43,972 nucleotides of DNA, from contig WJLZ01000184.1 in the NCBI GenBank assembly GCA_014728215.1, forward strand, positions 1 through 43,972, written 5' to 3'. Position 1 is the first letter of the stretch, and each line of letters opens with the position of its first letter. The notes under the pieces were generated by a model that saw only the letters and a list, made by a program, of their open reading frames with translations, was not told the DNA's origin and made no database searches. Below, piece after piece: positions 14,271 through 38,530 of this stretch. The stretch is from Chitinivibrionales bacterium. Lineage in GTDB: Bacteria; Fibrobacterota; Chitinivibrionia; Chitinivibrionales; WJKA01. Position numbers and translations under genes: made by a program.

Positions 14271-14279
14271 TTAGTGGTA
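14271..14279 (-). promoter_or_regulatory. TACCACTAA motif upstream of barrel gene
   Basis: Minus-strand TACCACTAAAATAAGATA lies 79 bases before the barrel start. The same TACCACTAA with a following A/T-rich stretch lies upstream of the ECF sigma gene (21816) and of the ABC importer (25021). A shared regulatory site is an inference. Confidence 0.35.
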
Positions 14280-14356
14280 GTTGGTGATAAATGCGTTCAC
14301 TTTCAGACAGGCTGACAATTCTGCAACAGGTTAAAGTGGGCGTTGAGGATTATGAT

Positions 14357-16393
14357 TTAATTCAGAAAAGAAAAGCTCTGCCTGTATGAGCGATCGCCAA
14401 TATGAATATGTGCGAAATACATGCCCGAAGAAAGCTCTGAGCCGTCAACAGTTGCACAATATCTGCCCGCCTGTCTGACTGTTGGAGGGAATGGCGTTGC
14501 GATGCTCTTTCCTTCCAGATCAAAAAGCCACGCGCCACTGTGCTGCTGTATTCCATGCACATTCATTATCATCGTAATTCTATTGCCGGCCCGGTGCATT
14601 ATTGGCTGAGTAAATTTTTCATCCGGCGGCAAAATCGTAGATTTTTTATCAATACCAACATCATCATCAACCTCGAAACTGCTATAGAAGTCCGGCATAT
14701 TTCCTGTTAATACAAGGAGATACAGCATCTTGAGTATGTCGCAGAAATAATCGGTTCCCCAATTCACACCGGTTTCGCACATCGGAAGCTCCACAAGCCG
14801 GGCGTATAATGTATCCAGCCACTGCCGGTCTTCATCGACCATAGCGGCGACAGCAATCGAGCCGACAAATCCTGCCAGATTCATTGTGTCTTCTGTGCCT
14901 AAATGCGGATTAGGTGAGCCGTTCCATGATGTTTCGCGTCCATCGAGCGTGTAATGGGAGCAGATTTTTGACGGATCGCCGTTGCATTTTTCTTTGAAAA
15001 ACCGGGAGATACGGGCGGTATTTGTTTGCGCGTAGTCGCTGTTTGTTGTCCCGTGAAGGAGATAATCATAGCCCAGGCGCCAGGGAAACCGGCAGGCGTC
15101 CCACCAGAAACTGTTGTAATCCATTGCCCATTCGCCGGGACTCTGCTCGCCGCCTTCGTAGCTGCACCAGTTGGGAAGCAGCCCTGTATGCATATCGAAT
15201 TCACTGTTGTAGGTTTCATCGCTGTTGAAATAGTAATCGACAATCGTGCTGTAGGTATGCCCTGCGATATCACCCCATCGGGAGAGGCCGGTCAGGGTTT
15301 CGAACTGCTTGAATACGGCCGGAGCAAAATAGCTGGGATTGCCGATATCCCAACTGTCACCGGGGCGGACATCGTTGTTGTCGCTGATTTCATGCTGCAA
15401 AACACTGGAAGTCAAACCGGTGGCTTGATCGAAATAATTAATAGAGCCGCTGCTTCCCCACTGACGGTGTGCGGCAAAAAGCGCATGAGCGGCATCGATA
15501 TCGGCATCGGTAGCAGCACCGCCCGGAAAATGCATAGTCCCATCGCTGTAAATCCGCCAGGTCATCAGGTTGTTCTCGTTTTTATACCGGCAGTAGTAGT
15601 TCCATAAACCATCGAAATAGCCCTGCGTATCGTTGGAATCGTTGTGCATATACACCATGATTATCATGCCGTAGGCGATGCCTTCACTCACCGTATCGTG
15701 TGTATTGCTGTCCCCTGTTTCGATACGCTGGACCCGGTATTCACCTGACCGGCACCCTTGCTGCGTAAGATATTTCTCTTTCCACATCCTGAACCAATCC
15801 ATGCAATGACGGTTCATCTGTGACTGAGTGAAATTCGAGGGTTTGATTCCGAAAGGATATCGGGATGCGGTTGGAAAACTGCAGTCCTTTTCGGGAAGGC
15901 CTGTTGTATCGGGTTCGGGTACAAATTCTTTAATAACAACATTGTCTAAAGCAACCATACCGGATATCTTTCCCATATTAAAATCTAAGCGGCAGGAATG
16001 GGCGTTACCGTTCTGCGTAGAAAATGCAACGGAACAGGTCATCTTTGAGGGGGTTATCGGCACACTGATATCGCCTGAAACCCCGGGCCCGATTGAAACG
16101 ACAATCGTTTTATCGGTATCCGCATAAGCATCAAAGGTCAATTCATAGTTTTTGCCGTCACTCAATGTAATGCCGCTCTGCATGAGCTGCACCGCCCACT
16201 CTTCCTGCTGAGCTGTGCTGATATCGATCCGGTATTCGCCATCGACAACCCGGCCGTCAGCGACATTCCGATAATCACCAAACGTCCACTGCGTATCGCC
16301 CGATGAAAAATCACCGTTGCTGATGATCGTCCGGCCAATACAGACTGCTATAAATGCCGCAAGCAGCAATGCTGCTGGAGTGTGCAATTTCAT
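14357..16393 (-). CDS. GH8 endoglucanase with N-terminal CBM and sorting domain
   Basis: A 678-residue secreted enzyme. Signal peptide about 1-20; residues about 21-158 form a CBM4/9-like jelly roll (IISNGDFSSGDTQWTFGDY ... ALDNVVIKEF); residues about 170-575 are a glycoside hydrolase family 8 catalytic domain. The proton donor is Glu237 in VSEGIAYGM; ATDADIDAAHALFAAHRQW (291 onward) matches the GH8 signature with its key aspartate at 296/298. WDIGNPSYFAPA and WCSYEGG are further family segments. The family cuts internal beta-1,4 bonds in cellulose, chitosan or xylan; cellulose fits the context. The last 90 residues (AWLFDLEGKSIATP, LSSGMYFAHI) look like a sorting domain. CCGGAGTT precedes the ATG; the gene starts 14 bases after the GH9 gene, one operon. 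Confidence 0.92.
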   Translation of the reverse strand: MKLHTPAALLLAAFIAVCIGRTIISNGDFSSGDTQWTFGDYRNVADGRVVDGEYRIDISTAQQEEWAVQLMQSGITLSDGKNYELTFDAYADTDKTIVVSIGPGVSGDISVPITPSKMTCSVAFSTQNGNAHSCRLDFNMGKISGMVALDNVVIKEFVPEPDTTGLPEKDCSFPTASRYPFGIKPSNFTQSQMNRHCMDWFRMWKEKYLTQQGCRSGEYRVQRIETGDSNTHDTVSEGIAYGMIIMVYMHNDSNDTQGYFDGLWNYYCRYKNENNLMTWRIYSDGTMHFPGGAATDADIDAAHALFAAHRQWGSSGSINYFDQATGLTSSVLQHEISDNNDVRPGDSWDIGNPSYFAPAVFKQFETLTGLSRWGDIAGHTYSTIVDYYFNSDETYNSEFDMHTGLLPNWCSYEGGEQSPGEWAMDYNSFWWDACRFPWRLGYDYLLHGTTNSDYAQTNTARISRFFKEKCNGDPSKICSHYTLDGRETSWNGSPNPHLGTEDTMNLAGFVGSIAVAAMVDEDRQWLDTLYARLVELPMCETGVNWGTDYFCDILKMLYLLVLTGNMPDFYSSFEVDDDVGIDKKSTILPPDEKFTQPIMHRAGNRITMIMNVHGIQQHSGAWLFDLEGKSIATPFPPTVRQAGRYCATVDGSELSSGMYFAHIHIGDRSYRQSFSFLN

Positions 16394-16407: not shown

Positions 16408-18891
16408 TTAATGATTGTAGTTATATGTTTTCCTGATCGTTTTCTGTTTGGATGCCGTGTACGAGATAACATATAATCCTTTGGAATGACCTGCTAAGGA
16501 CAATGATGTTTTTTCACCGTCTGCAGTCTGCCGCAGAACCAACCGCCCCCTTGTATCGTGGACAGTAATGGTGCCGTTTTGCCTGATATGGTCTCCGGCC
16601 GGATCGAGTACCAGATGGCCGTTATCATTCGAATGAATTGCCATGCCGGAGCCGAAAAATGCGACCGGCTTACCGTGCTGTGCCGCCAGGGGTGCTGTAT
16701 TGAGAATGTGGTTCAGGGTGGAAACGGCCAGAAGATACCACGCATTGTGCGGAAGCCACTGTTCGACCCATCGCCAGTTCTCGGAATTACTTTCTTCCCA
16801 GGGCATCCAGGCAATATCGCCGCCTCCCATGGTATCGGAGGTTATGCCGTTACAGATACCGCCCTCTACATTCGAAATGGCATATCCCGGTTTGCCGGCA
16901 TAATGGGGATAATTATTATTACCGAAACCATACATCATGCAGACATCAAAGGGATTGCCGCCTAATATCCAGTTGAATTGAGAAAGCGCAAGGTCCGAGA
17001 CTGAATCGGTTATCGATATCTGAAATGATGAATCGAGTGCTCGTGCCGAAGACATAAAGGCTGCGGACAGCGATGCTATCCGTGCATTTTCGCCCTGCCA
17101 CCAGTAGCCGGTTTCATTGACATGGGGTTGAAAAAACGACGTGGTGAATTCAACCGCGCCGGTGAATTCACCGTAGACCTCAAATTCGTAGAGCGAATAA
17201 CCTCCCCACAGATAGGATTTCTGCCGGCCATACATCCGTACATACCGTGCCTGCCGTGGCGGATCGATCGTGATGATATCGACACCGCCGTCTCCTGCGG
17301 TCTCATGGTAAGTATCGTCCCATGTTGTGCCGTCGGTGGACAATTGCACACGATACTCAGTGCCATACGCGGCTTCCCATCGGAGAATAACGGTTTGGAT
17401 TTCACAGGCACTCTCAAGATCGACCTGCAGCCACGCGCTGTAATCCGGGGAATCGAACGGCTCCCCGCTTGACCACCGGGAGTTCACCGCATCGGAATCA
17501 AAAGCATTCTGCGGAAGATTCGGCAACTGGCTCGAAGAGGCTTCCGAGGGCTTTCCGGCAGCGAGATTGTTGCCGCTGCCCGTGCTTCCGTTGTAATGAG
17601 CATACTGCAGCTTGACATAATTGAACGGATTGGCACTTTCGTGGGTTATTTTTAAATACCAGTCGATACTTTTTTGCAGGAGCGCATGAATTGCATCTTT
17701 CTTCGATGTGTCGATTGTCAGGAACTCAATCAGTGCGATCACCGGAAGGCCTTCTTCCGCCGCATGATAATAGGGACGCCGCCCCTGAGAATCGGACCGG
17801 AACCAGCCTTCATCACTCAGTCGAGCGACAAGATTGTCGGCACGCCCGCGGGCATCAATCTTATATGAACCATCTCCGGTAGCCTTGTACAATTCAGTCG
17901 CAGCCATAAGCGCGCAGTAATCATCGATTATGTTTTCTTCACCATTATCACAGTAGCTGAGATTATTGTCTTTTAAATGAGCATAAGCCTTTTCCGCACC
18001 GACAAGGTAGTCATCGGAAGAATATTCACCGTCGATTTCCAATGCCGCGGCTTTAGCAAGCGCTGCAATCGCCATTCCCCCGCCTTCACGAAAAGCAGCA
18101 TGCCAATCATTTGTCTTGAATCCCGACCAGTTGTATTCGGGTATCGAAGGGTCCGGGTTGTATTTCCAGGTGCATATTTCCCGGTTGATGTCCCATCCCC
18201 ACCGGTCGAAAATGATCATATAAAAGTAACCGTCGGGGTCCAATATCCTGAGAAGATAATCGGCGCCATAGGCCGCTTCGGAAAGAATGGAATTATCGAA
18301 ATCATTTTTGTTGAGTTCCCACGACCGAAGCAGAGACCATACGACCATGGGAATCTGCTGAGGAGTCATGTAATTTGAGAATGCCAGATGGGAAAGATAT
18401 TTACCCATATCCCCGGTGGCGTCGTTCCATCCGCCGTGAACATCCCTGGGTGAAGCATTATCATTAAAAAAAGGAACGCTTCTATCGTCAAAAGTATTTC
18501 GCATGCCTCTGAAAAAATCGACATTTGCCTGGGCGGTTGTTTCAAACAGTACGTTATCCCGGATACGAAATTCGGCTGACTGCTCTCCCCCGCATTCAAT
18601 ATGATAGATTCCGGGTTCGCAAAGATCTGAAAATATGCCTTTTCTGAAATAGCGTCCCGGCCACTCATCAACCGAAACATTGTTTTCCAGCGTGCCCGAA
18701 TAGGCACTGTTGCCGTGGGTATCGACTATATCAAACGATGTCCGGGTAATCGGCGATGAACTTTCGACCACAAAGGATTTAGGGCCGATCGATTCATAGC
18801 CGAGGTGATTGTAATGAAGGGCATTTGACTGAAAGGGAATTGCAAGAGCACACGCAGCCGGCAGTACTAGTTTGAGAGTGCGAAATTTCAT
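16408..18891 (-). CDS. GH9 cellulase with discoidin domain inserted in the catalytic fold
   Basis: An 827-residue secreted enzyme: signal peptide 1-24, CelD-type N-terminal Ig domain about 25-112, GH9 catalytic part about 115-435 and 577-735, sorting-like tail about 765-827. The base motif is GGWNDATGDMGKYLSH (Asp157, Asp161), one residue longer than the usual DAGD; ETGYWWQGENARIASL (593 onward) is conserved, and Glu710 in WRWVEQWLPHNAW is the expected acid. Between the two catalytic parts, residues about 441-575 are an F5/8 type C (CBM32-like) domain: AFDSDAVNSRWSSG, WLQVDLESACEIQTVILRWE, ARYVRMYGRQ, YSLYEFEVYG. GH9 enzymes cut beta-1,4-glucan by inversion. AAGGACAG precedes the ATG. The GH8 gene follows after 14 bases. 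Confidence 0.92.
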   Translation of the reverse strand: MKFRTLKLVLPAACALAIPFQSNALHYNHLGYESIGPKSFVVESSSPITRTSFDIVDTHGNSAYSGTLENNVSVDEWPGRYFRKGIFSDLCEPGIYHIECGGEQSAEFRIRDNVLFETTAQANVDFFRGMRNTFDDRSVPFFNDNASPRDVHGGWNDATGDMGKYLSHLAFSNYMTPQQIPMVVWSLLRSWELNKNDFDNSILSEAAYGADYLLRILDPDGYFYMIIFDRWGWDINREICTWKYNPDPSIPEYNWSGFKTNDWHAAFREGGGMAIAALAKAAALEIDGEYSSDDYLVGAEKAYAHLKDNNLSYCDNGEENIIDDYCALMAATELYKATGDGSYKIDARGRADNLVARLSDEGWFRSDSQGRRPYYHAAEEGLPVIALIEFLTIDTSKKDAIHALLQKSIDWYLKITHESANPFNYVKLQYAHYNGSTGSGNNLAAGKPSEASSSQLPNLPQNAFDSDAVNSRWSSGEPFDSPDYSAWLQVDLESACEIQTVILRWEAAYGTEYRVQLSTDGTTWDDTYHETAGDGGVDIITIDPPRQARYVRMYGRQKSYLWGGYSLYEFEVYGEFTGAVEFTTSFFQPHVNETGYWWQGENARIASLSAAFMSSARALDSSFQISITDSVSDLALSQFNWILGGNPFDVCMMYGFGNNNYPHYAGKPGYAISNVEGGICNGITSDTMGGGDIAWMPWEESNSENWRWVEQWLPHNAWYLLAVSTLNHILNTAPLAAQHGKPVAFFGSGMAIHSNDNGHLVLDPAGDHIRQNGTITVHDTRGRLVLRQTADGEKTSLSLAGHSKGLYVISYTASKQKTIRKTYNYNH

Positions 18892-19019
18892 TCACTGTCC
18901 TTGTACCGATCATGGGGAATGTTTCATATAGATATTTAGTATCGGTTTTAAGGACGTGAGTTCGAAATGAAGATTTGAGAAGTAGTATTAAGGGGTCTTT
19001 TTGATGCTGTCGACATGAT

Positions 19020-20699: not shown

Positions 20700-21680
20700 A
20701 TGACAAACATGTACACTCAAGGCAAAATTTTTCTTCCTTTCTTTAATTCTTTTCTGTTCCCTGTTATTGCAGGGGGATTCCTTTTTGCTTGCCCCGAAGC
20801 TGTTAATGCCGGGGAGTGTGAAAAAGACAAACGCCTGCTATTTTTGAATGTCGACTCATCGGTTGAACAGAATATTGATGTTCATTTCGGCATTAAGCTC
20901 CTTGAAGAGCTTCGTGCGCCGCTTCAGGAAATAGAATATTGCATAAAACAGGCACCCGATTTGCTGACAGAACCCGATTCGGCATACAGCGACGATTTCC
21001 TTTTATACTTAACCGCAGCCTGCACCGAAAATTTTGATGATCACGATTCATCATCCAGGCGCAATTGCGCAATCAATGCCGGATTGCTTGGCAAAGGAGA
21101 GCGCTCCGATCAGGCTTTTGAGCAGGCCCGTGATCGTCCACTGGTGAGAATGCCCTTTGTTTCCTCTGATTCCAGCACATTTTATGAAGTACTGGCACAG
21201 AAAATTGTCGAGAATCTTCGTACTCAGTACCTCTGCCATCTTCATATCGAATCGGAGCCTTCGGGCGCACAGGTCGGCGCGCGATCGGGACTTTCGGCAA
21301 CAACACCGCTGGAATGGGTGGTACCTGTTGGTGAAATTACAATACATGCCACAAAAGAAAAGTACGCACCACTTACAAAAAACATACAATTAAGCCATCC
21401 GGGCAACCACACCTATGTTCTGCAGATGAAAAAGCCGCCATTCTTTCGCTCTCCCTTTTTCTACTCATCCCTTGCACTCGGCACGGCATCACTGGCAGCA
21501 TTTGCCTACAGTCAGTATCAATATCGTGAAAAATACCAGGCTCTCGGAAGGCCGGATCGGGAATCGAATCCTGATCTATTCGAGCAGACATACCATAGAG
21601 CTGAAACAGCGGAAAAGGCGGCACAGATAGGCCTGGGGTTTGCAGCAATGTCATTAAGTATTTCATTTTTCATAAGATAG
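20700..21680 (+). CDS. PEGA-domain exported protein
   Basis: A 326-residue protein with an N-terminal hydrophobic segment ending near AVNAGECEKD, so exported. Residues about 40-180 are an unrecognised alpha/beta region (RLLFLNVDSSVEQNIDVHFG, CIKQAPDLLTEPDSAY) that could resemble a periplasmic FlgO/curli-type sensor of the kind that sums up names of lipoprotein complexes, but I cannot assign it. Residues about 183-243 are a PEGA domain: LHIESEPSGAQVGA, TTPLEWVVPVGEITIHATKE, YAPLTKNIQL. PEGA domains are small beta modules found on surface or periplasmic regulators. A hydrophobic segment at about 252-272 (FYSSLALGTASLAAFAY) and another at the C-terminus are probably membrane anchors. It sits directly upstream of the ECF sigma gene, and the downstream partner also has a PEGA domain. 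Confidence 0.7.
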   Translation: MTNMYTQGKIFLPFFNSFLFPVIAGGFLFACPEAVNAGECEKDKRLLFLNVDSSVEQNIDVHFGIKLLEELRAPLQEIEYCIKQAPDLLTEPDSAYSDDFLLYLTAACTENFDDHDSSSRRNCAINAGLLGKGERSDQAFEQARDRPLVRMPFVSSDSSTFYEVLAQKIVENLRTQYLCHLHIESEPSGAQVGARSGLSATTPLEWVVPVGEITIHATKEKYAPLTKNIQLSHPGNHTYVLQMKKPPFFRSPFFYSSLALGTASLAAFAYSQYQYREKYQALGRPDRESNPDLFEQTYHRAETAEKAAQIGLGFAAMSLSISFFIR

Positions 21681-21800
21681 GGAAGAAATGGAGTGATGGA
21701 GCGACGCACTGAGTTTATCGAAGCGTCATGTGTTTACGAATCGTGCGCTCGTGACTTCGTGAGTTCGTACGCTCACTCCATTCCTCCACTCTTCCCTGAA
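21681..21800. repeat. Low-complexity long inverted repeat
   Basis: GGGAAGAAATGGAGTGATGGAGCG at the left (split here: GGGAAGAAATGG, AGTGATGGAGCG) is an imperfect inverted match of CGCTCACTCCATTCC, TCCACTCTTCCC at 21770-21797. The interior carries the 20-bp sequence copy at 21741-21760. The structure could end transcription of the PEGA gene; the T-run CCTTTTTCC follows at 21801. Confidence 0.5.
21741..21760 (-). repeat. 20-bp intergenic repeat, copy 1
   Basis: On the minus strand this reads ACGAAGTCACGAGCGCACGA. Near-identical copies occur at 30525-30544, 34864-34883 and 38281-38300, each in an intergenic gap of the plus-strand cluster. Confidence 0.8.
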
Positions 21801-21815
21801 CCTTTTTCCATTTAT

Positions 21816-21824
21816 TACCACTAA
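21816..21824 (+). promoter_or_regulatory. TACCACTAA motif upstream of ECF sigma gene
   Basis: TACCACTAATTTTATTTG lies 55 bases before the ATG at 21879. The same nonamer precedes the ABC importer and, on the minus strand, the barrel gene at 13.5 kb. Its place before the sigma gene would fit autoregulation; that is inference. Confidence 0.35.
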
Positions 21825-21878: not shown

Positions 21879-22445
21879 ATGAAAGCAGTGCTTGAGCCGG
21901 CTGAAGAGCTCCTGCAGGAATGCAGGGCCGGTAATCAATTGGCGTTCAAAGAGTTATTTCATATGTTCAAGTCGTATGCGTATAACTTGATCTACAAAAT
22001 AACCGGAAACAAAGGGGATCACGAAGACCTTTTGCAGGAAACTTTTTTTCAGACGTATGTGTCGCTGAAAACCTTTAATGGGGATTCATCCTTTAAAACC
22101 TGGTTTCACCGCCTGATTATCCATGTGTGTACGCGGCAGTGGCGGTACCAGAAAGCTGAAAAGAGGATTTCCGCCAAAGATACGGTTGCCATGGAGGATG
22201 TTGAATTCCTGCTGACTTCAAAGGAGCCGCATTTCGAAAAACAGATGGAATTGAAAGATCTTATCGATCGTTCACTCGATCAACTTGATCATAAACTTCG
22301 TATTCCGCTTATATTAAGTGTATACTCTGAAATGGATCTTGCGGAGATCGGCGCAATTATGGGGATACCCGAAGGAACGGTAAAATCCCGCCTGTTCTCT
22401 GCTCGAAAAAAGATAAGGGACTATTTAGATAAACTGGAAACGTAA
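21879..22445 (+). CDS. ECF-family RNA polymerase sigma factor
   Basis: About 188 residues from ATG at 21879 (MKAVLEPAEELLQECRAGNQ), preceded by AGAGG; a longer frame to 21831 lacks a binding site. Region 2 is clear: AFKELFHMFKSYAYNLIYKI, GDHEDLLQETFFQTYVSL (the D-x-x-Q-E-x-F core motif) and SSFKTWFHRLIIHVC. Region 4 follows: LDQLDHKLRIPLILSVYSEM, DLAEIGAIMGIPEGTVKSRL, FSARKKIRDYL, the usual helix-turn-helix that reads the -35 element. ECF factors steer RNA polymerase to small regulons in response to envelope signals. Its stop TAA shares one base with the ATG of the next gene (TAATG), so the two are translationally coupled, as for sigma and anti-sigma pairs. Confidence 0.95.
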   Translation: MKAVLEPAEELLQECRAGNQLAFKELFHMFKSYAYNLIYKITGNKGDHEDLLQETFFQTYVSLKTFNGDSSFKTWFHRLIIHVCTRQWRYQKAEKRISAKDTVAMEDVEFLLTSKEPHFEKQMELKDLIDRSLDQLDHKLRIPLILSVYSEMDLAEIGAIMGIPEGTVKSRLFSARKKIRDYLDKLET

Positions 22446-24451
22446 TGAACGACAAAAACGGAAAACTTTCATGGTTCGAGTCTCAGTTGCGCAGCGATGT
22501 GGATGATTCCCATATCGACTATGATGCAATTGAGCGCAAATTAGCGGAACGGCTCGCCAAGACCGACTCTCTTGGTGAACTGGCCTCGCTGAAGCTTCAT
22601 GAGGAGCCATCCGATGAACTATTCGACCGGGTTGAGGAAAAGTTATTCAAACGTATCCAGGAGCACCGGGAGTACGAAGAACCTGTCGATGAATGCATAA
22701 ATACCGAAAATGCACCGTCACCTGCCCGATGGGAACGAATCGAAGAGAAACTCGATGAAACACTGCAGCCTCTTTCACAGCTTCCCGACTGGGAGCAGGC
22801 GCTTAAAGCAGACATTATCCTTACCCAGGGAAAATGGGAAGTAATCGAAGACCGGCTTTTTACCCGGATTCAACGTGAAGAAAGAATACAAGAACTCGCT
22901 GCACAGCCTTTCTGGCATGTTATACTTCCCTTTATGCACCTTACCGGAAAAATTGGTGCAGGAATAGCAACGTTTGTCCTGGCCGGTGCAATTGCCCTGG
23001 GCATGCTCTGGTACAATAACAGCAATTCGCCTGTCACAACCTATGTCTATCAGGCACAGGGCACATCAGCCAATAATTACGAGACCGGACGTGTGGATCA
23101 AACCAGGCTTACGTCCCATACCGATGGCATGATCGGCCTTACGAACATGCACGGGTTTATCGAGCTGTATAACGGTTCCGGAGTAAATATTGTTCAGACA
23201 TCCCGCCGCAAGGCACACTATGAAGTAAATCTTTCGGAATCAATCGACGGCATTACCAGTGGCGGGAAAGCCCGTTTTTTCGTAAACAAATCAGAGGAAC
23301 GGAACCGTTTTCTGGTCGCCACCAGCGATTATTCGATCGAAGTAACAGGCACTTATTTCAGTGTCGAACCCGGTATCGAAGGCCGCGTTACGACCCATGT
23401 GTATGAGGGAAGCCTCACCATTCACTCCGATGTCTTTGGAGAAAAGTCGCTCGGTGCCGGGCAGAGTCTTATTTATAATCACAGGAGCGGAAAGTATGTT
23501 GTCAAGGATGGCGGAACGATTATTCCCCGCTATGACATACAAAACACGCCGGCAGCAGAAATACTCGATAATTTTGCAACAATCGATATCCGAAGCAGGG
23601 GTATCGATGCCGAGGTTCGTATCGATGGCCGGTATTACGGGACCACACCTCTTGTTGTGCTCCAACCCCTGGGAACCCATACAATCAGGCTGAGTCATGA
23701 TGATTACCTGACAATGGATACCACGGTCAATTGCACGAAAGAATCGGGTATTCTCGCTGTCGATGCCGCAATCATGAAACGTCCTTTGGCCCAGGCTCCG
23801 GACAAAAAATCCAGATTGCAGGCTCCGATACAAGCAAAGAGCACTGTTTCATCACAAACATCTTCACCCGGGAAATCGGTGGTAACGAGCAACAGCAAAA
23901 GCGATCAGATTTATAAAAATGCCAAGCAGGCGCTTCGACGAAACAACTGGAAACGAGCGATCGAGCATTACCGGATGGTTGCCGAAATGCCGGAAGTATC
24001 ACGCCTTCGTAAAGAAGATGCCCTTTTCTCGATTGCAAAAATCTATGCAGACCATGCAAAAGATTTTGCCGCTGCCAGAGAAGCGTTCCTCTCCTACCTT
24101 GCCTTGTACTCCGATGGCTACTTTGTGGGAGAATCGTGGCTCCGTCTTGCCGAACTCGAATTTGAAATTGACAAAGAAAAGGCGCTGGAGTATTATCATA
24201 AATATTTTCAGAAATTCCCTCATCACCATCGGATAGCAGAAATACAGTACCGTGTGGGTCTTATCTACCTTCAGCAGGACCGGTACGAATCTGCGATCGA
24301 TATGTTCAATCAGGCCCTGACAAATGTGGTCTACACCAATAAAGAGCTGGTGAAAAGTATCTATGCCAACCTCTACCGCGCCCTCAAAGAAAGCGGTGAC
24401 ATGGCCGGAGCTGAGTTTATCAGGGAGCAGCACTTGAGTAAGGCGGAGTAG
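22445..24451 (+). CDS. FecR/PEGA/TPR membrane protein, probable regulator of the ECF sigma factor
   Basis: A 668-residue protein with an unusual layout. The N-terminal 160 residues, expected in the cytoplasm, hold four tandem units of about 35 residues, each ending in a W/F-E/D-x-I-E-x-K-L helix: YDAIERKLAERL (26), FDRVEEKLFKRI (60), WERIEEKLDETL (96), WEVIEDRLFTRI (131). One membrane helix follows at 171-190 (GAGIATFVLAGAIALGMLWY). Outside come a FecR-like beta domain (about 215-350, HTDGMIGLTNMHGFIELYNG, RVTTHVYEGSLTIHS, LGAGQSL), a PEGA domain (about 378-428, GRYYGTTPLVVLQPLGTHTI) and TPR repeats (about 480-660, AIEHYRMVAEMPE, ALEYYHKYFQKFPHH, AIDMFNQAL). FecR proteins control their partner ECF factor. 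The coupled start supports that role here. No zinc-binding anti-sigma motif is present. Confidence 0.85.
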   Translation: MNDKNGKLSWFESQLRSDVDDSHIDYDAIERKLAERLAKTDSLGELASLKLHEEPSDELFDRVEEKLFKRIQEHREYEEPVDECINTENAPSPARWERIEEKLDETLQPLSQLPDWEQALKADIILTQGKWEVIEDRLFTRIQREERIQELAAQPFWHVILPFMHLTGKIGAGIATFVLAGAIALGMLWYNNSNSPVTTYVYQAQGTSANNYETGRVDQTRLTSHTDGMIGLTNMHGFIELYNGSGVNIVQTSRRKAHYEVNLSESIDGITSGGKARFFVNKSEERNRFLVATSDYSIEVTGTYFSVEPGIEGRVTTHVYEGSLTIHSDVFGEKSLGAGQSLIYNHRSGKYVVKDGGTIIPRYDIQNTPAAEILDNFATIDIRSRGIDAEVRIDGRYYGTTPLVVLQPLGTHTIRLSHDDYLTMDTTVNCTKESGILAVDAAIMKRPLAQAPDKKSRLQAPIQAKSTVSSQTSSPGKSVVTSNSKSDQIYKNAKQALRRNNWKRAIEHYRMVAEMPEVSRLRKEDALFSIAKIYADHAKDFAAAREAFLSYLALYSDGYFVGESWLRLAELEFEIDKEKALEYYHKYFQKFPHHHRIAEIQYRVGLIYLQQDRYESAIDMFNQALTNVVYTNKELVKSIYANLYRALKESGDMAGAEFIREQHLSKAE

Positions 24452-24943: not shown

Positions 24944-25020
24944 ACATGCTATTAATAGTGCTCCAAACTATCTATTAATCCCCTCCATTTTCCATTCATT
25001 TCGAACCATTCCTGAAATAG

Positions 25021-25029
25021 TACCACTAA
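25021..25029 (+). promoter_or_regulatory. TACCACTAA motif upstream of ABC operon
   Basis: TACCACTAATATTACTTA lies 43 bases before the ATG of the binding-protein gene; the following ATTGTATTAACG may include a -10 element. The same nonamer lies upstream of the ECF sigma gene. Confidence 0.35.
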
Positions 25030-25071: not shown

Positions 25072-26853
25072 ATGCACCCCCTTTTCAAGGAGAATGATAC
25101 ATCCAGCCGGATTGTTTCTCTGGTCACTATTCTTGTAACGGCCTGTGCGCTTTTTATGGCCGGATGTTCCTCAGGTGACCAGGATGTCACCCGGTTCCCG
25201 CGTAACCAGACACTGTATGTCGGTGGTTTTCAGTGGGGCCCGCCCACAACGTTCAATCCCCTGGACGGGATTCCAGCATGGCCCATGACCGGCAATATGA
25301 ACCTTGTCTACGAAACACTCTTTGGCTACAATCAGCTCACCGGGCAACTGGAAGGTATCATCGGTAAAGAATATCGTCTGGAAGACACCTCACTATACGT
25401 AACCTTGAATGAAAATGCAGCATGGCAGGACGGCACTCCGCTTACTGTCGATGATGTTATCTACACATTCCAAATTCATAAAAATTACAACACCCACCTT
25501 CATTCACACTGGAAATATCTCGATGGTATACGAAAAACCGGTGACAACGAAATCGAATTTATCCTCAGTAAAGAAAACTACAACCGGTTTATTGTCCTCG
25601 ATATCATTTCGGTGACACCGATCATACCTAAAAAGGTTTTTGAGCCCCTGGAGACCAAAGGTACCGAGGACATGAGCAGCGATCAGATCCTTACAAAAAT
25701 CAGGAAATTCAGAAACGACAGCCTTCCTCTGGGATCCGGGCCCTATACGCTCTATGCCTATTCGGACCGGAAAATTGTTCTTAAGCGGGTCGATAGTTAC
25801 TGGGGCAATGTGCTTTACGAAGCCAGACAAGCGGCGCCGACCTATATAATTCATCTCTCATTCACCGACAACGACAAATTCAACCTTGCGCTCCAGCAGG
25901 GCGATCTCGACATTTCGCAGACATTCTGCCCGCAAATATGGAACAAATTCAACAAGGGCGTCAAAACATGGTATCCCGAACAGCCATACTATGTTCCGGC
26001 AATAATTCCCTGCCTTCTTATGGGCATGACCAAGGCTCCTTTTGATGATGTTGCTTTTCGCAGGGCCTGTGCTCATGCGATCGACTATGAAAAAATTAAA
26101 ATTGTTGCCATGTATGGCTACTCACCCGACCTTCAGCCCGGATTCATTCTTCCTTTCGGCGCCGAAAAACCGTATTATTCAACCGAAGATGCAGAAAAAT
26201 ACGGTGCTGCTTTCAATACCCAAAAGGCTCGGGAAATTCTGAAAGAGGCGGGGTATTCCTGGGGCGAGGACAGTCTTTTAATCGATCCTTCGGGCAACAA
26301 AATCCGCACGCTCAATGCTACCTGTCCCAGCGGCTGGACAGACTGGGAGACCACCGTTAAAATAGCGGTAACCGGGCTCCGGGATATCGGTGTCGATGTT
26401 CGCGAGAGATTTTTGGAATATCCGATCTGGGATAAAAACCTCAAAAACGGGCTGTTCGATTTTACCATGCGGACCCCGCACCCGGAACTGTCGCCTTCGT
26501 GCCCATGGATACGTTTTGAAAAAGTGATGTCATCCAGGCACTGGGCTCCGGTGGGTCAGGTTATGTACGAAAATGAGGGCCGCTATAAAAACGCCGCCGC
26601 GGATTCGCTTCTTTTAGCACTTCCGGAGTTGAGCGATGATGCCGCTATTAAAGAAGCTTATCATGAATTGAACCGGCTTTTCATGCAGGAGATGCCGGCT
26701 ATTCCCCTGATGTACCGTCCGTGGCATTTTTATCAGTTCAGCACGAAACACTGGGAAAATTTTCCTACCAGCGATGACCCCTATGCACCGCCGCAATGTC
26801 TGATGGTTGGTGCGGGTGTGAAAGCACTCTGGCAACTGGATCCGCAAAAGTGA
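25072..26853 (+). CDS. Family 5 ABC solute-binding lipoprotein (probable oligosaccharide binder)
   Basis: A 593-residue SBP_bac_5 protein. The signal peptide ends in a lipobox FMAGC (Cys32, followed by SSGD), so it is anchored to a membrane. Family landmarks: LVYETLFGYN, VTLNENAAWQDGTPLTVDDV with YTFQIHKNY, LPLGSGPYTL, FTDNDKFNLALQQGDLDIS, FRRACAHAIDYEKI and AREILKEAGY. The family is named for oligopeptides, but close relatives in cellulolytic bacteria, archaea and Thermotoga bind cello- and manno-oligosaccharides. The cellulase and cellobiose phosphorylase context makes cellodextrins the likely ligand; this is inference. AAGGAG precedes the ATG. It starts a five-gene importer operon and its stop overlaps the possible GTG start of the next gene. 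Confidence 0.92.
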   Translation: MHPLFKENDTSSRIVSLVTILVTACALFMAGCSSGDQDVTRFPRNQTLYVGGFQWGPPTTFNPLDGIPAWPMTGNMNLVYETLFGYNQLTGQLEGIIGKEYRLEDTSLYVTLNENAAWQDGTPLTVDDVIYTFQIHKNYNTHLHSHWKYLDGIRKTGDNEIEFILSKENYNRFIVLDIISVTPIIPKKVFEPLETKGTEDMSSDQILTKIRKFRNDSLPLGSGPYTLYAYSDRKIVLKRVDSYWGNVLYEARQAAPTYIIHLSFTDNDKFNLALQQGDLDISQTFCPQIWNKFNKGVKTWYPEQPYYVPAIIPCLLMGMTKAPFDDVAFRRACAHAIDYEKIKIVAMYGYSPDLQPGFILPFGAEKPYYSTEDAEKYGAAFNTQKAREILKEAGYSWGEDSLLIDPSGNKIRTLNATCPSGWTDWETTVKIAVTGLRDIGVDVRERFLEYPIWDKNLKNGLFDFTMRTPHPELSPSCPWIRFEKVMSSRHWAPVGQVMYENEGRYKNAAADSLLLALPELSDDAAIKEAYHELNRLFMQEMPAIPLMYRPWHFYQFSTKHWENFPTSDDPYAPPQCLMVGAGVKALWQLDPQK

Positions 26854-26861
26854 ATACCGGT

Positions 26862-27881
26862 ATGACATTATCACCCCGTTCTCGCTATATGTTCCGTCGT
26901 GTCGGATGGTACTCTCTGACCCTGTTCGTGGCACTGTTTCTCAATTTCATGCTTCCACGGCTCGGGCCTGCCAATCCGATTGACACGATCATGACCAAAC
27001 TGAGCAGTCCCGGAATGGATTCGCAGGCATATCTACGGATTTACAAATCATATGTGCAGGAATTCAGCCTTGACAAGCCGATTTCCATGCAGTTTTTCAC
27101 CTATGTTGGAAAATTTCTCAAAGGCGATCTGGGAGTATCCTTTACCAAGTACCCGCTCAGAGTAAACGAGATTATCGTCAATGCTCTTCCCTGGACCCTT
27201 GCACTTCAAATTCCAGCCTTGCTTCTGGGGTGGATTGTCGGGAATGTTCTGGGAGCACTTGCAGCCTATAAACGGGGCCTTTTTGACAAGGGGCTCTACC
27301 CGCTTGCGCTGTTTTTCAGCTCGATCCCCTATTTCTGTTTTGCGATCGTTCTGGTTTTTGTTTTTGCAATTCAGCTTCAATGGTTCCCTGCCATGGGCGC
27401 CTATGGCAATGATATGCTCCCGAGCTTCTCCTTTGCTTTCTTCGGAAGTGTTCTCACTCATTACACGCTTCCCTTTCTTTCGCTGTTCCTTATTCTTGTA
27501 GGCGGACAGGCGATCGGTATGCGGTCGATGGCGATTTACGAACTGGGCACCGATTATGTGGGATATGCAAAGATGCTGGGTATCGGCGAAGGGACTATTG
27601 TCCGCTATGTTTTTCGCAATGCCATGCTCCCCCAGCTTACCGGTCTGGCGCTGTCGCTGGGTATGATGGTAGGTGGTGCGCTCATCACGGAAATTGTGTT
27701 TTCCTATCCGGGTATCGGACTAACCCTTTTTACTGCTATAAGAGAGAGCGATTACCCGGTGATTCAGGGGTGTACGCTTCTTTTGACACTGTGTGTTCTG
27801 GCGGCGAATTTCGGGATAGATATTCTCATCGGCATTTTAGACCCGCGAATCAAAGCGGCACAGGAGGCGGGTAACGCATGA
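26862..27881 (+). CDS. ABC importer permease, DppB type
   Basis: About 339 residues from ATG at 26862 (MTLSPRSRYMFRRVGWYSLT); a GTG at 26850, overlapping the previous stop, is equally possible. Six membrane segments are expected: about WYSLTLFVALFLNFMLP near the start, ALPWTLALQIPALLLGWIVG, LYPLALFFSSIPYFCFAIVL, LPFLSLFLILVGGQAIG, LALSLGMMVGGALITEIVF and the C-terminal VLAANFGIDILIGI. The large periplasmic loop after the first helix and the EAA-type loop TDYVGYAKMLGIGEGTIVRY are typical of DppB/OppB permeases. It should pair with the next gene to form the membrane channel for the substrate held by the binding protein. The start of the next gene overlaps by four bases (ATGA). Confidence 0.93.
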   Translation: MTLSPRSRYMFRRVGWYSLTLFVALFLNFMLPRLGPANPIDTIMTKLSSPGMDSQAYLRIYKSYVQEFSLDKPISMQFFTYVGKFLKGDLGVSFTKYPLRVNEIIVNALPWTLALQIPALLLGWIVGNVLGALAAYKRGLFDKGLYPLALFFSSIPYFCFAIVLVFVFAIQLQWFPAMGAYGNDMLPSFSFAFFGSVLTHYTLPFLSLFLILVGGQAIGMRSMAIYELGTDYVGYAKMLGIGEGTIVRYVFRNAMLPQLTGLALSLGMMVGGALITEIVFSYPGIGLTLFTAIRESDYPVIQGCTLLLTLCVLAANFGIDILIGILDPRIKAAQEAGNA

Positions 27882-28711
27882 AACAGTTCAAAGCACTCCT
27901 TACATCCCCCGCTTTTCTTATCGGTACGAGCCTTTTTGTCCTATGCCTGTTTCTTTCCATTGCCTATCCTTTGATAACGTCAACCGACCCCTTTGCCCGG
28001 GTTGGATATCCTTTCGAGCAGCCATCATTGAAATACTGGCTTGGCACCAATGCCGAAGGCCAGGATATGCTGGCACAGATTTTGTTCGGTCTGAGAGCTT
28101 CGATGTTCGTCGGCATTACAGCCGGTTTGATTGCAACGATACTTGGAACGCTTATCGGCATCACCGGTGGTTACAGCGGAGGACTTCTTGACAATATACT
28201 GACAATGGCAACGAATCTGCTCCTGGTGATCCCCTCGCTTATTATTCTTATTCTTATCACCACCAGTATCGAAAAACGATCCCTGGTGCTCGTTGCGCTG
28301 ATTATCGGCGCCACGACCTGGACCTGGACCGCCCGTGCGGTCCGTGCTCAGGCGGCAAGCCTCAAAAACCGCGAACATGTCCATCTTGCAAAGCTTAACG
28401 GTGCAGGCACCCTGTCGATCCTTATCCTGCAGATTCTTCCCTATATGCTTTCCTACGTGTTTATGGCATTTGTCATGCAGATGGCTACCGGGATACTCAG
28501 TGAAGCTGCGATCAGTATGCTCGGGCTTGGCCCCTATGATACAGTGACGCTTGGCCAGATTCTTCATTATGCACAACGAACCGAAGCTTTGATCAACGGA
28601 AACTGGTGGGCATTCCTTCCCGCCACAATCATGGTAACGGTCATCGCATTCTCGCTCTATCTTGTAAACACCGCCATGGAAGGCATTTTCAATCCGCGGT
28701 TGAGGAAATAG
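27878..28711 (+). CDS. ABC importer permease, DppC type
   Basis: A 277-residue partner permease. An N-terminal helix (FLIGTSLFVLCLFLSIAYPL) and the short loop YWLGTNAEGQDMLAQILFGL, a hallmark of DppC/OppC subunits (LGTD..G.D...R...G.R), precede five more helices. The EAA loop is AQAASLKNREHVHLAKLNGAG, which docks on the ATPases. ILSEAAISMLGLGP is another family mark. Start and stop overlap or abut neighbours (ATGA before, four bases to the next gene), so all five genes are one transcript. Confidence 0.93.
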   Translation: MKQFKALLTSPAFLIGTSLFVLCLFLSIAYPLITSTDPFARVGYPFEQPSLKYWLGTNAEGQDMLAQILFGLRASMFVGITAGLIATILGTLIGITGGYSGGLLDNILTMATNLLLVIPSLIILILITTSIEKRSLVLVALIIGATTWTWTARAVRAQAASLKNREHVHLAKLNGAGTLSILILQILPYMLSYVFMAFVMQMATGILSEAAISMLGLGPYDTVTLGQILHYAQRTEALINGNWWAFLPATIMVTVIAFSLYLVNTAMEGIFNPRLRK

Positions 28712-28715
28712 CACT

Positions 28716-29687
28716 ATGCCGTTACTCGAAACAGACAAACTTTCGCTTCATTACAAAACCCGTATCGGCGAGAAGGTTCATGCGGTTGATGGTGTTTCAT
28801 TTGCCCTTGATTCCGGACGGGTCCTGGGTGTAGCCGGCGAATCGGGGTGCGGGAAATCGACTCTGGTGAACGGTATTATGGGACTGTTCCTTCCTCCGCT
28901 CTATTATTCATCGGGAGCGGTTTCCATCGATGGTATCAACATTATCGGGATGGAGCCTGAGCGCCTTCGAAAAGATATTCTTGGCAAACGCATTTCGATA
29001 ATCCCTCAGGGTGCACTGAATTCTCTTAATGCCACCCGTAAAATAAAGAATTTTGCCTGTGATGTCATGCGGTGCCATGAACCGGACCTGGACAAACCGT
29101 CAATAATCAAACGCTTGACCGAACGGTTCGAAGCGATCGGGCTGGACAAACGGGTTTTGGACGCCTATCCCCTGGAGCTGTCGGGCGGGATGAAACAGCG
29201 GGTTGTGATCGGTATATCCACAATCATGAATCCCCGGGTGGTGATTGCCGATGAACCATCGTCGGCACTTGATGTTTCCACACAAAAAGCGGTAATCACC
29301 CTTCTTCTCGACCTTATGCGACAGGATATTATCGGCAGCATGATATTTATCACCCATGAGCTTCCGTTGCTCTATCATATCGCCAATGATATCGCGATAA
29401 TGTATGCCGGAGAATTTGTGGAAACCGGTACGCGTGACCAGATAATCCACGATCCCCGCCACCCCTACACTCGTGCACTGATGGATTCGATGCTCTTGGC
29501 CGAGGAAGGGTCACGGGAGAAAAAGCCGACAGCGCTCCCCGGTGCGCCGCCCAATCTCAAGAAAAAAATGGAGGGATGCCGTTTCGCTCCCCGGTGCCCT
29601 GTGGCAAACAAAGCAACCTGCCCGATGAACCGTCAGGAAATGAAAACAGTGGCCGATCGCCTTGTGAGGTGCGAATATGCAAAATAG
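28716..29687 (+). CDS. ABC importer ATPase, DppD type
   Basis: A 323-residue nucleotide-binding subunit. Walker A is GESGCGKST (residues 41-49), the signature LSGGMKQRVVI and Walker B VVIADEPSSALD are intact, and the switch His lies in MIFITHELPLL. After the ATPase core is the oligopeptide-transporter C-terminal extension (HPYTRALMDSM, ALPGAPPNL) with four cysteines (GCRFAPRCPV, ATCPMN, VRCEY) in the pattern that binds an iron-sulphur cluster in relatives. GAGGAAAT precedes the ATG. It works with the following ATPase as a heterodimer on the cytoplasmic face. Confidence 0.95.
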   Translation: MPLLETDKLSLHYKTRIGEKVHAVDGVSFALDSGRVLGVAGESGCGKSTLVNGIMGLFLPPLYYSSGAVSIDGINIIGMEPERLRKDILGKRISIIPQGALNSLNATRKIKNFACDVMRCHEPDLDKPSIIKRLTERFEAIGLDKRVLDAYPLELSGGMKQRVVIGISTIMNPRVVIADEPSSALDVSTQKAVITLLLDLMRQDIIGSMIFITHELPLLYHIANDIAIMYAGEFVETGTRDQIIHDPRHPYTRALMDSMLLAEEGSREKKPTALPGAPPNLKKKMEGCRFAPRCPVANKATCPMNRQEMKTVADRLVRCEYAK

Positions 29688-30456
29688 CAACCATTTGATG
29701 ACTGCTCGTGATGTGAGCTGTATATTCGGCCATGGGAAAAATGCAGTCGCTGCAGTCGACAATGTTTCTTTTCATATCAGCAGTGATGAAATCGTTTCGA
29801 TTGTGGGAGAATCAGGCAGCGGTAAAACATCACTTGCCCGTCTCATGCTGCGGCTTTACCCGATTACCAGCGGCGACCTGCATTTTAAAAGTACCCCGGT
29901 AACCGAACACGGTAATTACTGGCGTTGGGTGCAGGCCGTATTTCAGGATCCCTTCAGCTCGTTCAATCAATTCTTTACTGTTCGGAGCCAGATGAAAAGC
30001 TGTTTCAAGCTGCTGGATACGACCATTCCGGAACAAGAGAAACAGGATCGTATCGATAAAGCGTTTCGTATGGTAAACCTCGACCCCGGTGAAATAAAAG
30101 GTAAATTTCCTTTCGAGCTTTCGGGGGGTCAAATGCAGCGCCTGCTCCTTGCCCGGATATTTCTTATTCGTCCGAGCATTTGCATTGCCGATGAACCGAC
30201 ATCGATGATCGACGCGTGCAGCAGAGCAACGATCCTTGAGCTTCTTTTGGATCTCAAGCGCGAGCTTGCCATGAGTATCATTTTTATTACCCATGATATC
30301 GGTCTCGCCTATCATGTCAGCGATCGAATATTTGTTATGCGACGGGGTGCGATTGTGGAGCAGGGCGTGCCTGACAACGTGATTTTGAATCCGCAGCACG
30401 AGTATACGAAAAAGCTTCTGAAAGATATACCGGTACTGAATCGGGAATGGATATAA
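29677..30456 (+). CDS. ABC importer ATPase, DppF type
   Basis: A 259-residue second ATPase. Walker A GESGSGKT (44-51), Q-loop FQDPFSSFNQFF, signature LSGGQMQRLLLARI, Walker B ICIADEPTSMIDA and switch IIFITHDIGLAYH are all present. It is short compared with the usual 320 residues: the C-terminal cysteine-bearing extension of DppF proteins is missing and the protein ends soon after HEYTKKLLKDIPVLNREWI. Its start overlaps the end of the previous gene by 11 bases. It closes the importer operon; no terminator hairpin is obvious after it. Confidence 0.93.
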   Translation: MQNSNHLMTARDVSCIFGHGKNAVAAVDNVSFHISSDEIVSIVGESGSGKTSLARLMLRLYPITSGDLHFKSTPVTEHGNYWRWVQAVFQDPFSSFNQFFTVRSQMKSCFKLLDTTIPEQEKQDRIDKAFRMVNLDPGEIKGKFPFELSGGQMQRLLLARIFLIRPSICIADEPTSMIDACSRATILELLLDLKRELAMSIIFITHDIGLAYHVSDRIFVMRRGAIVEQGVPDNVILNPQHEYTKKLLKDIPVLNREWI

Positions 30457-30524
30457 ATAATTCCTGTGAACGGTGGGGCAATGTTTAGGCACTAAATGGG
30501 TAGCAGGCGGCAGAGAATGAACCC

Positions 30525-30544
30525 ACGAGGTCATGAGCGCACGA
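30525..30544 (+). repeat. 20-bp intergenic repeat, copy 2
   Basis: ACGAGGTCATGAGCGCACGA, two changes from copy 1. It lies between the importer operon and the first outer-membrane gene, and a spurious N-terminal extension of that gene would read through it. Confidence 0.75.
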
Positions 30545-30566
30545 AAGTGAAGAATAGTTTCTATAC

Positions 30567-30573
30567 AAAGGAG
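30567..30573 (+). promoter_or_regulatory. Ribosome binding site that fixes a TTG start
   Basis: AAAGGAG lies nine bases before TTG at 30583. It moves the start of the outer-membrane gene from ATG 30496, which has no binding site and codes for repeat-derived residues, to TTG 30583, after which a normal signal peptide follows. Confidence 0.75.
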
Positions 30574-30582
30574 ATTTTACGG

Positions 30583-32856
30583 TTGTTTAGTATACACCAT
30601 AATCTTATACAGGCGATAGCATTGGCAGGAATTTTGTTTTCGACTGCAGCATTGTCCGCTGCCGGAGAAAGCAAAGAAGAGCGGCTCGATTCGCTTGAAA
30701 ATAAAATTGACAATTTAGAGAAAAGTGTCCTTTCCACATTGCTTTTTGGCGGGTCTTCACCGGTTTCTTTCTCCGGTGAGGCCCGCCTGAAGCTACAATA
30801 TCATCATTTTGAAAAATATCCGGAATTCATGCGGGATGACCGCTCGTGGCTTCAGGCAAACTGGGAAGGTAACGAATCACTGGTTCGCCTGGGCATGGTG
30901 GTCAGGGCTAATCGTAACACGGTGCTGTGGGCCAAGCTGGGATTCCAGCATACGCTTCCCGGTGTCTGGACAAATGAATACACCGGCGATACTCTCGCAC
31001 AGTATCGTCATGACAAAGGCGATAACCAGGCAAGTATTCACGAAGACATGTGCGCCGGAATTGCACTTCGTACCGTACCGGCATCGTTCTGGCTGAAAAT
31101 GGGCGCTGTCCACTGGATCGAAGCGTCCCCCTTTACGATTTGGAAATCGCAACCGCGAACGTTTGCCTGGGACTATCTCCCCTACGAAATCGAACAGCCG
31201 ATTGCACGGTATTACGAATACAACATTGCAAAGGGTGAAAAAACCGGCCGGGCGGCATGGAATAAAAAGGCATTCCAGGGAATAAATCTTGAAAGTATCA
31301 ACCTGCCCGCAGATCTTTATTTCAATTTCCTCTATGGCACCTTCGAGCGATACGACAATTTCGAACGGGAGTATATCGATTTCAGTAACGACCTGGCTTA
31401 TGCCGGGGAACTCACTGAAGCTAAGGGACGGGGAATTGGCGATACCTACCGCCATATCATTCATGGCCGGGTCGCAAAGGACAATGCGTTCCTCAACCTT
31501 ACCCCGGGATTGAATTACCTTACAATGGTTTACCGGAAAGATTTGATTAATCTCAGCCCGTTCCTCAAGGTTTTTGGTACGCAGCGAGCAGGTAACCGGG
31601 CTTTCTTCAAAGAGCCTTCGGTATTTTCCGCAGACCTGCGAGGGAAGTTACTCGAAAAACTGGGATTCCATCTTGATATCGCCAGCTCAGTCATCGACAC
31701 ATCGTTTTTCAGCTACGACTCGACCGGCTTCGATACTGAAACACAAAAAAACATTGTTACCCGGACCGATGAAAACCGTAAATCCGTTCCCAGAATAGCA
31801 TTCTACTCACAAATAAAGAGCGATTACGGTATCCCCATCCAGGCCGATATCGCCGTCGTTCCCAAAGGTTTTTATTCTCCTCTGTCATTTGCTCCACCGA
31901 TGGATGCATTCTTTCCCTTCGGTTCCAACCTTGTAGGACCCGGGAAGTTTGTGGCGCGAGGCGAAGGATCTCCCTATGTGCAGAATATGGCAGGTATCAA
32001 TGTGTCGGTTGTGCCGAAACTCAAGGGTTACGGTCATCTCAGATTTACCTATGGCCAGCATTTTCAGCTTGAAAAAGCCCGCGACCTTCTCTATTTTCCC
32101 TACCGGCTTAACGGGCAGGACCTGTTCAACCTGTTCCACTCTTCCTATAATCGATGGGGAAATAATCTTGTCGACCACTCCATGAACGGAGAATACAGCA
32201 AACGTTTGGGTGATGAGAGCTACCATACCAAGGAATACGGTTCTCCGGTCGGTTTTGCCGGCGGTGGGATGCGCAGCGATTATTTGAATATCTATGAGGG
32301 GTTCGTGCCCTATCAAAGTGCAGCAGAAGCCGATTCAAACCTCAATGACATATCGACAATTTTCACCCGTTCACCCTTTGTGCCTCAACACAAAAAATAC
32401 ACATTCAATTTCGAATTAGATGCTGCATATGATATCGGCAGCTACATAGGTTATGATAAAGACCTCTTTATCAGTGGCTATTTTGCGCTCAATGGCGTAT
32501 CGACAGCATTCAAGCCCCTTGCTTTCAATGATGAAAGTGACGATATGCTCCTGTGGGGAACCTATTTCCGATTCGAGCCTGCCATTGCATTGACAAAGAG
32601 TTTCTACCTCCTGGGGCTTGCCGGATTCGAGAACTGGCGTTCACAAAAGGCATACATGCAGGATACCAGCGGAGTGGCAGTTCATAAACCGATCGATTTT
32701 ATGGATATGGCCTTTGGTCTCGGATTTGACTGGGATATCTTTTCCCGTGTAGGACTTCACGGACGGGCTAAATGGATGAAACACGACGATGTCAATTTTC
32801 CTGATAATAACTGGGAAACACCGATACTATCAACAGAAATAAAGATGTGGTTTTAG
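30583..32856 (+). CDS. Outer-membrane beta-barrel protein with N-terminal coiled coil (1)
   Basis: About 757 residues from TTG at 30583 (read as Met, then FSIHHNLIQAIALAGILF). Signal peptide ends near LSAAGES. A short coiled coil follows (EERLDSLENKIDNLEKSV), then a long beta-rich barrel with many aromatic strand ends (GEARLKLQYHHFEKY, WLQANWEGNESLVRLGMVVR, YGHLRFTYGQHFQLEK, FNFELDAAYDIGSYIGY) and a final strand ending TEIKMWF, with the terminal Phe expected for assembly by the BAM machinery. I do not know a named family. Size and layout suggest a large porin or channel. It lies between a sugar-type ABC importer and cellulose-active enzymes, so a role in oligosaccharide passage is plausible but unproven. 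Confidence 0.8.
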   Translation: MFSIHHNLIQAIALAGILFSTAALSAAGESKEERLDSLENKIDNLEKSVLSTLLFGGSSPVSFSGEARLKLQYHHFEKYPEFMRDDRSWLQANWEGNESLVRLGMVVRANRNTVLWAKLGFQHTLPGVWTNEYTGDTLAQYRHDKGDNQASIHEDMCAGIALRTVPASFWLKMGAVHWIEASPFTIWKSQPRTFAWDYLPYEIEQPIARYYEYNIAKGEKTGRAAWNKKAFQGINLESINLPADLYFNFLYGTFERYDNFEREYIDFSNDLAYAGELTEAKGRGIGDTYRHIIHGRVAKDNAFLNLTPGLNYLTMVYRKDLINLSPFLKVFGTQRAGNRAFFKEPSVFSADLRGKLLEKLGFHLDIASSVIDTSFFSYDSTGFDTETQKNIVTRTDENRKSVPRIAFYSQIKSDYGIPIQADIAVVPKGFYSPLSFAPPMDAFFPFGSNLVGPGKFVARGEGSPYVQNMAGINVSVVPKLKGYGHLRFTYGQHFQLEKARDLLYFPYRLNGQDLFNLFHSSYNRWGNNLVDHSMNGEYSKRLGDESYHTKEYGSPVGFAGGGMRSDYLNIYEGFVPYQSAAEADSNLNDISTIFTRSPFVPQHKKYTFNFELDAAYDIGSYIGYDKDLFISGYFALNGVSTAFKPLAFNDESDDMLLWGTYFRFEPAIALTKSFYLLGLAGFENWRSQKAYMQDTSGVAVHKPIDFMDMAFGLGFDWDIFSRVGLHGRAKWMKHDDVNFPDNNWETPILSTEIKMWF

Positions 32857-32879
32857 TGCATATTTAAGGAGTAATATAA

Positions 32880-34841: not shown

Positions 34842-34855
34842 GTGAAGGGTTACAA

Positions 34856-34883
34856 ACGAGCGCACGAAGTCACGAGCGCACGA
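34856..34883 (+). repeat. 20-bp intergenic repeat, copy 3
   Basis: ACGAAGTCACGAGCGCACGA at 34864-34883, identical to copy 1. Its 12-base end ACGAGCGCACGA is also repeated just before it (34856-34867), giving a 16-base period. It lies 15 bases after the stop of the second barrel gene. Confidence 0.8.
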
Positions 34884-35032
34884 GGGGTTTGCAAATTATC
34901 ATTGTCTCAAGAACAAAGAGATTAACGGAAAAGAAAATAAGAGGAAAGTTTGCTTAACAAATGTGCCGCACCCCGACCGTCAGGGAGGGGTTACGTTGAG
35001 GCAGAAAATTAAGAAAGTGGAAAAGCAGGACC

Positions 35033-38206: not shown

Positions 38207-38280
38207 TCACCAGGGGTCGCTAGTGGTGAAACGACGCGACGATGGGGCGACGCGGAGACGCGACGAGTGAAGAGGAAAGA

Positions 38281-38300
38281 ACGAAGTTACGAGCGCACGA
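38281..38300 (+). repeat. 20-bp intergenic repeat, copy 4
   Basis: ACGAAGTTACGAGCGCACGA, one change from copies 1 and 3. It lies 75 bases after the stop of the surface lipoprotein gene. Confidence 0.8.
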
Positions 38301-38332
38301 TGGAAAATAGAAATCCTGAAATCGATTAACCC

Positions 38333-38420
38333 TGTCCCGGAGGGACAACATATCAGTAGCCGGGGATACAATCCCTGGCGTTGGGAAAAACAGAAATACA
38401 TCTTTCGTCCCGTAGGGACG
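38333..38420 (+). repeat. Three-hairpin intergenic repeat
   Basis: Three small palindromes in a row: TGTCCCGGAGGGACA (38333-38347), CCGGGGATACAATCCCTGG (38360-38378) and CGTCCCGTAGGGACG (38406-38420). The first and third share TCCCGxAGGGA with paired end changes. Repeats of this GTCCCGTAGGGAC kind are, to my knowledge, common between genes in several environmental phyla. Confidence 0.7.
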
Positions 38421-38482
38421 GTTCCTGAGCATGTCGAAGAACGGCCAGGATGAACATGCAAAAGAAGAATTAAATCCCGTGT

Positions 38483-38522: not shown

Positions 38523-38530
38523 CATATACC

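Follow-up and report, generated by a model that had tools for sequence, protein, structure and literature searches.

The window, the whole stretch of 43,972 nucleotides that was analysed, originates from an uncultured cellulose-degrading bacterium (Chitinivibrionales, Fibrobacterota) and probably encodes a switch of cellulose use, composed of an ECF sigma factor and an anti-sigma factor with a new cytoplasmic repeat module. The sequence-only reading had described a FecR-like regulator with four tandem units in its cytoplasmic part, followed in one chain by a membrane helix and by FecR, PEGA and TPR domains. This observation was confirmed: Pfam and hydropathy place the FecR, PEGA and TPR domains, in this order, C-terminal to a hydrophobic stretch near residue 170. 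The ATG of the gene shares one base with the stop codon of the sigma factor gene (TAATG). The features of the system are:

20700..21680, plus strand: PEGA protein, likely envelope partner (Pfam, co-occurrence)
21798..21824, plus strand: predicted self-promoter of the sigma/anti-sigma pair, GAACC-N16-CACTAA (19 of 19 genomes)
21879..22445, plus strand: ECF sigma factor of 188 aa, partner gene with overlapping stop/start (Sigma70 r2 and r4)
22445..24451, plus strand: membrane anti-sigma candidate of 668 aa with repeats, transmembrane helix, FecR, PEGA and TPR (Pfam and repeat matrix)
22484..22588, plus strand: repeat unit 1, residues 14-48 (35-column register, cross-position matrix; likewise units 2 to 4)
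22586..22690, plus strand: repeat unit 2, residues 48-82
22694..22798, plus strand: repeat unit 3, residues 84-118
22799..22903, plus strand: repeat unit 4, residues 119-153
22952..23008, plus strand: membrane helix, residues about 170-188 (hydropathy, best hydrophobic window from 170)
23159..23413, plus strand: FecR domain, residues 239-323 (PF04773, 27.0 bits against a cut-off of 24)
23576..23743, plus strand: PEGA domain, residues 378-433 (PF08308)
23912..24322, plus strand: TPR tail, residues about 490-626 (TPR families in Pfam)

Helices of the pattern W/F-x-x-I/V-E-x-K/R-L had been noted at residues 26, 60, 96 and 131. The four positions held as motif starts (YDAIERKL, FDRVEEKL, WERIEEKL and WEVIEDRL), only the first motif departs from the pattern with an initial tyrosine. 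Units of 18 relatives were set in a fixed 35-column register. To test a given unit of the window protein, the matrix was derived from other proteins alone, and within these from units at positions other than its own. Units 1 to 4 of the window protein obtained scores of 6.9, 20.6, 19.1 and 32.5, shuffled sequences means of about -40; 1, 0, 0 and 0 of 20,000 shuffles scored as high. The best local register was offset 0 for all four units, and the top score outside the units in the same 668-aa protein was -6.2. Since a matrix trained across positions finds the units, an internal duplication beyond mere orthology is indicated, and the four units are true tandem repeats. They are 34-36 residues long and built of a short and a long helix, the latter with the consensus W-E-x-I-E-x-x-L-F-x-R-I (E 91 %, L 98 %, R 72 % and I 78 % across units). 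When aligned, shifted four-unit fragments slid back to the native register, and two-unit fragments aligned in register.

All genomes compared were metagenome assemblies; f1, f3, f4, f6 and f11 are family labels given to the genomes of the relatives. With the window protein alone as query against the genome contigs no relatives were found, the alignment as query revealed nine. The family search proposed for the repeat was productive: a profile of the full N-terminal region matched 19 of 168 Fibrobacterota genomes, with one match each. A two-unit profile, applied to 392 genomes (Fibrobacterota and about 220 others), retrieved this protein again, with no true repeat in the about 220 genomes outside the phylum. 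Two matches from there (L123, L124) turned out to be false, a polynucleotide phosphorylase and a coiled coil, and were rejected. The number of repeats varies between lineages, a feature absent from the earlier reading. Four units were present in f1 and f6 relatives, six in f4 relatives, with a degenerate fifth unit in some. The f11 relatives have four units, except one genome with three, in which about one unit's length is missing; thus one unit was lost within a single genus. The f3 relatives have two clear units and a weak third, and the claim was kept to two.

The repeats are always next to one conserved ECF sigma factor (19 genomes). Orthologues of the sigma factor, 52-73 % identical, are encoded directly upstream of the repeat gene in 18 of 18 relatives. 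The sigma factor of the window matched PF04542 with 52.0 bits, PF08281 with 46.1 bits and TIGR02937 above cut-off, and of the Sigma70 regions it comprises only 2 and 4. Its gene is preceded by the motif GAAC[CT]-N16/17-[CT]ACTA in 19 of 19 genomes, whereas shuffling predicts 0.07 genomes; we read the motif as a promoter of the ECF type. Its presence in all 19 genomes implies autoregulation, and on this ground recognition of the motif by the adjacent sigma factor is suggested.

The cytoplasmic part consists of these repeats and shows no match to a known anti-sigma domain, in line with the sequence-only reading. Pfam yielded nothing at cut-off over residues 1-192, including the FecR-type N-terminal cytoplasmic domain, nor in the repeat region of any family member. 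NCBIfam and class I anti-sigma domain profiles did not match the repeat region, scans of Pfam and NCBIfam found no RsgI N-terminal domain, and the Hx3Cx2C motif of zinc-binding class I members was missing from residues 1-165. TPR profiles of Pfam and NCBIfam matched C-terminally at residues about 478-651 and not in residues 1-165. PDB sequence profiles gave nothing below E 0.2, and a fold search with the model of two units, a weak model, nothing below E 7. The repeat family is without a match in Pfam, NCBIfam and PDB sequences, and in this respect appears new. Structure prediction of the repeat region alone gave weak models. In each unit, AlphaFold2 placed a short helix (7-8 residues) and a long one (at least 19 residues); residues 1-160 reached a pLDDT of 69 and a pTM of 0.23, two units 77 and 0.36, and with these low pTM values the fold and packing of the repeats are unsettled. 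The three known anti-sigma classes are small helical domains that hardly resemble one another in sequence (PMC7406223), and a relation might therefore escape searches at the sequence level. It is nevertheless quite improbable that the repeats are a class I, II or III domain, diverged past recognition and duplicated: besides the searches without a match, a class I domain is a three-helix bundle with a fourth helix, unlike a tandem 35-residue repeat (PMC7406223).

The repeats are the only part of the protein on the side of the sigma factor and thus, by elimination, the part facing it. The protein would act as a single-pass membrane anti-sigma factor, whose cytoplasmic repeats most likely keep the adjacent ECF sigma factor inactive. 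Somewhat unlikely is a role of the repeats as spacer, oligomerisation or protease-regulation module, with a small segment, e.g., E76-Y77-x-x-P80, holding the sigma factor. E76, Y77 and P80 of this stretch, which separates units 2 and 3, do not vary among the f1, f4, f6 and f11 homologues compared, model confidence is lowest over residues 77-87, as might be seen for a segment that orders on binding, and the number of units varies while the sigma factor remains 52-73 % identical. The f3 relatives, however, lack this segment and have the sigma factor and two clear units, and the helix core E..L..RI is conserved across units at the frequencies given above. A direct binding of sigma factor by each 35-residue unit would render the protein a multivalent anti-sigma factor, with a capacity that evolves with the repeat number (3, 4 or 6). 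Across the arrays six to twelve helices are available; known ECF anti-sigma domains use two to four for their contacts with both sigma2 and sigma4 (PMC7406223). We consider this multivalency unlikely. Several units may wrap around a single sigma factor, or the array may bind more than one, and the varying unit number raises the question what an anti-sigma factor gains from added repeats on the sigma side. There is also a small chance that the sigma factor requires the FecR-like protein for its activity instead of being inhibited by it, as with FecR of E. coli, in which the N-terminal 59 residues are essential for sigma activity (PMC7406223). The FecR domain is shared, but the FecR-type N-terminal domain was not found by Pfam in the repeat protein and a TonB-transducer domain was not present among the window proteins scanned.

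If the repeat protein is the inhibitor, a signal at its outer FecR-PEGA-TPR part, received probably via the upstream PEGA protein, would free the sigma factor by proteolysis or conformational change. The proposal that this PEGA protein is the envelope partner gained support from co-occurrence. It was present in 13 of 13 tested genomes with the system and in 1 of 24 without (plus one weak domain-only match; p = 4e-9). The gene is linked upstream in f1, f3, f6 and f11 and unlinked, yet present, in f4. A standing sensor or partner of the system is the natural reading. A membership of the PEGA gene in the regulon was not supported, its upstream region mostly lacks the promoter. One genome in which the repeat anti-sigma factor was not found has a full PEGA homologue (E 5e-49; L317, genome G021, contig C147).

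The free sigma factor would transcribe its own operon from the promoter GAAC[CT]-N16/17-[CT]ACTA[AT] and, from promoters of the same kind, a cellulose-use regulon of GH9 and GH8 hydrolases, ABC importer and porins. This promoter link to cellulase genes was absent from the sequence-only reading. The predicted targets in the window, and one weaker promoter-like site, are:

18936..18963, minus strand: predicted sigma promoter of the GH9-GH8 pair (strict site)
16408..18891, minus strand: GH9 glycoside hydrolase, predicted target (PF00759, CelD_N)
14357..16393, minus strand: GH8 glycoside hydrolase (PF01270, CBM_4_9)
25003..25029, plus strand: predicted sigma promoter of the ABC importer/porin genes (strict site)
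25072..34841, plus strand: predicted target operon with SBP_bac_5 solute-binding protein (domain scan), permeases, ATPases and two outer-membrane-like proteins (read from the sequence)
14271..14299, minus strand: weaker promoter-like site before gene 13509-14192 on the minus strand (score 16.8)

Three strict promoter sites were present in the window, against 0.16 expected. Besides that of the sigma gene, strict sites are located 44 bases ahead of the GH9 gene 16408-18891 and 42 bases ahead of the ABC importer gene at 25072; the GH8 gene, 14 bases downstream of the GH9 gene, is probably on the same transcript. With a matrix built from sigma-gene promoters only and a score of at least 12, forward sites were found in 20 of 44 GH9 upstream regions of nine genomes with the system (reversed 0 of 44; 0.67 expected by shuffling) and in 0 of 22 from four genomes without it. 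The contrast had a Fisher p of 5e-5, to be read with the shared ancestry of related genomes, due to which the 44 regions are in part dependent on each other; the controls with reversed strand and with genomes lacking the system cover composition, not ancestry. The threshold of 12 was picked from a table of 8 to 12, over which 27 to 20 forward GH9 sites were observed with the system and 0 without, thus the contrast appeared at every threshold. Where the system is present, about half of the GH9 genes are without a promoter site. Among GH5 genes of these genomes, 6 of 30 had a forward and 1 a reversed site, with 0.47 expected. On contig C140 of the window genome strict sites precede a GH8 gene, two GH9 genes and a gene that encodes a secreted protein of 560 aa. 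Over this genome as a whole, strict sites showed no enrichment (21 versus 45 for the reversed pattern), thus the regulon would be small and single sites away from cellulase genes mean little; the conclusions on the promoter rest on gene-anchored tests only. The system is followed at 25072-40966 by genes for importer, porin-like, CBM30/CBM11 and GH94 proteins, so that the greater part of the window has the appearance of a locus for cellulose use. In one f3 relative a GH9 gene is directly downstream of the anti-sigma gene (L196, genome G004, contig C41 near 147831).

The genome of the window organism encodes a second FecR-PEGA-TPR protein (L044 2133-4076) that shares the outer architecture and has sigma and PEGA genes upstream, but has a short N-terminus and no GAAC[CT]-type promoter seen upstream. 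At L044 2133-5684 (contig C213) the PEGA, sigma and FecR-PEGA-TPR genes have the same order and no repeats; relatives of this system occur in 19 of 168 Fibrobacterota genomes. A single repeat unit in this paralogue was rejected, 414 of 1000 shuffles scored as high. A further FecR protein of this genome (L094 1009-2019, contig C37) contrasts with the repeat protein in a cysteine-containing N-terminus like a zinc-type anti-sigma domain.

The system appears to turn cellulose digestion on and off in a manner not yet described; searches of the open-access literature, judged by title, revealed no dedicated sigma switch for Fibrobacterota cellulase genes. With target promoters predicted base by base, it is directly testable. 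FecI/FecR-type ECF signalling (ECF243/AS243) also combines an ECF sigma factor with a membrane regulator bearing a FecR domain; the repeat protein differs by cytoplasmic repeats in place of the FecR-type N-terminal domain and by a PEGA protein as apparent partner, and an STN-domain TonB-dependent transducer was not found among the window proteins scanned. With class I anti-sigma factors (RseA, ChrR, RsiW, RskA) it has in common a cytoplasmic helical region before the membrane helix and a gene adjoining that of the sigma factor. Class I domains, however, have four helices once (PMC7406223), the repeat protein has 34-36-residue units, up to six. In Clostridium thermocellum the membrane anti-sigma factor RsgI and its sigma factor SigI control cellulose-degradation genes (PMC12203970), the same tie of a membrane anti-sigma/sigma pair to cellulose degradation as predicted here. 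RsgI has a single N-terminal domain inside the cell and a sensor that binds sugars outside, whereas the repeat protein has the repeats inside, FecR-PEGA-TPR outside and, unlike SigI/RsgI, a sigma partner of the ECF type. The Fibrobacterota switch would thus parallel the clostridial SigI/RsgI systems from unrelated parts.
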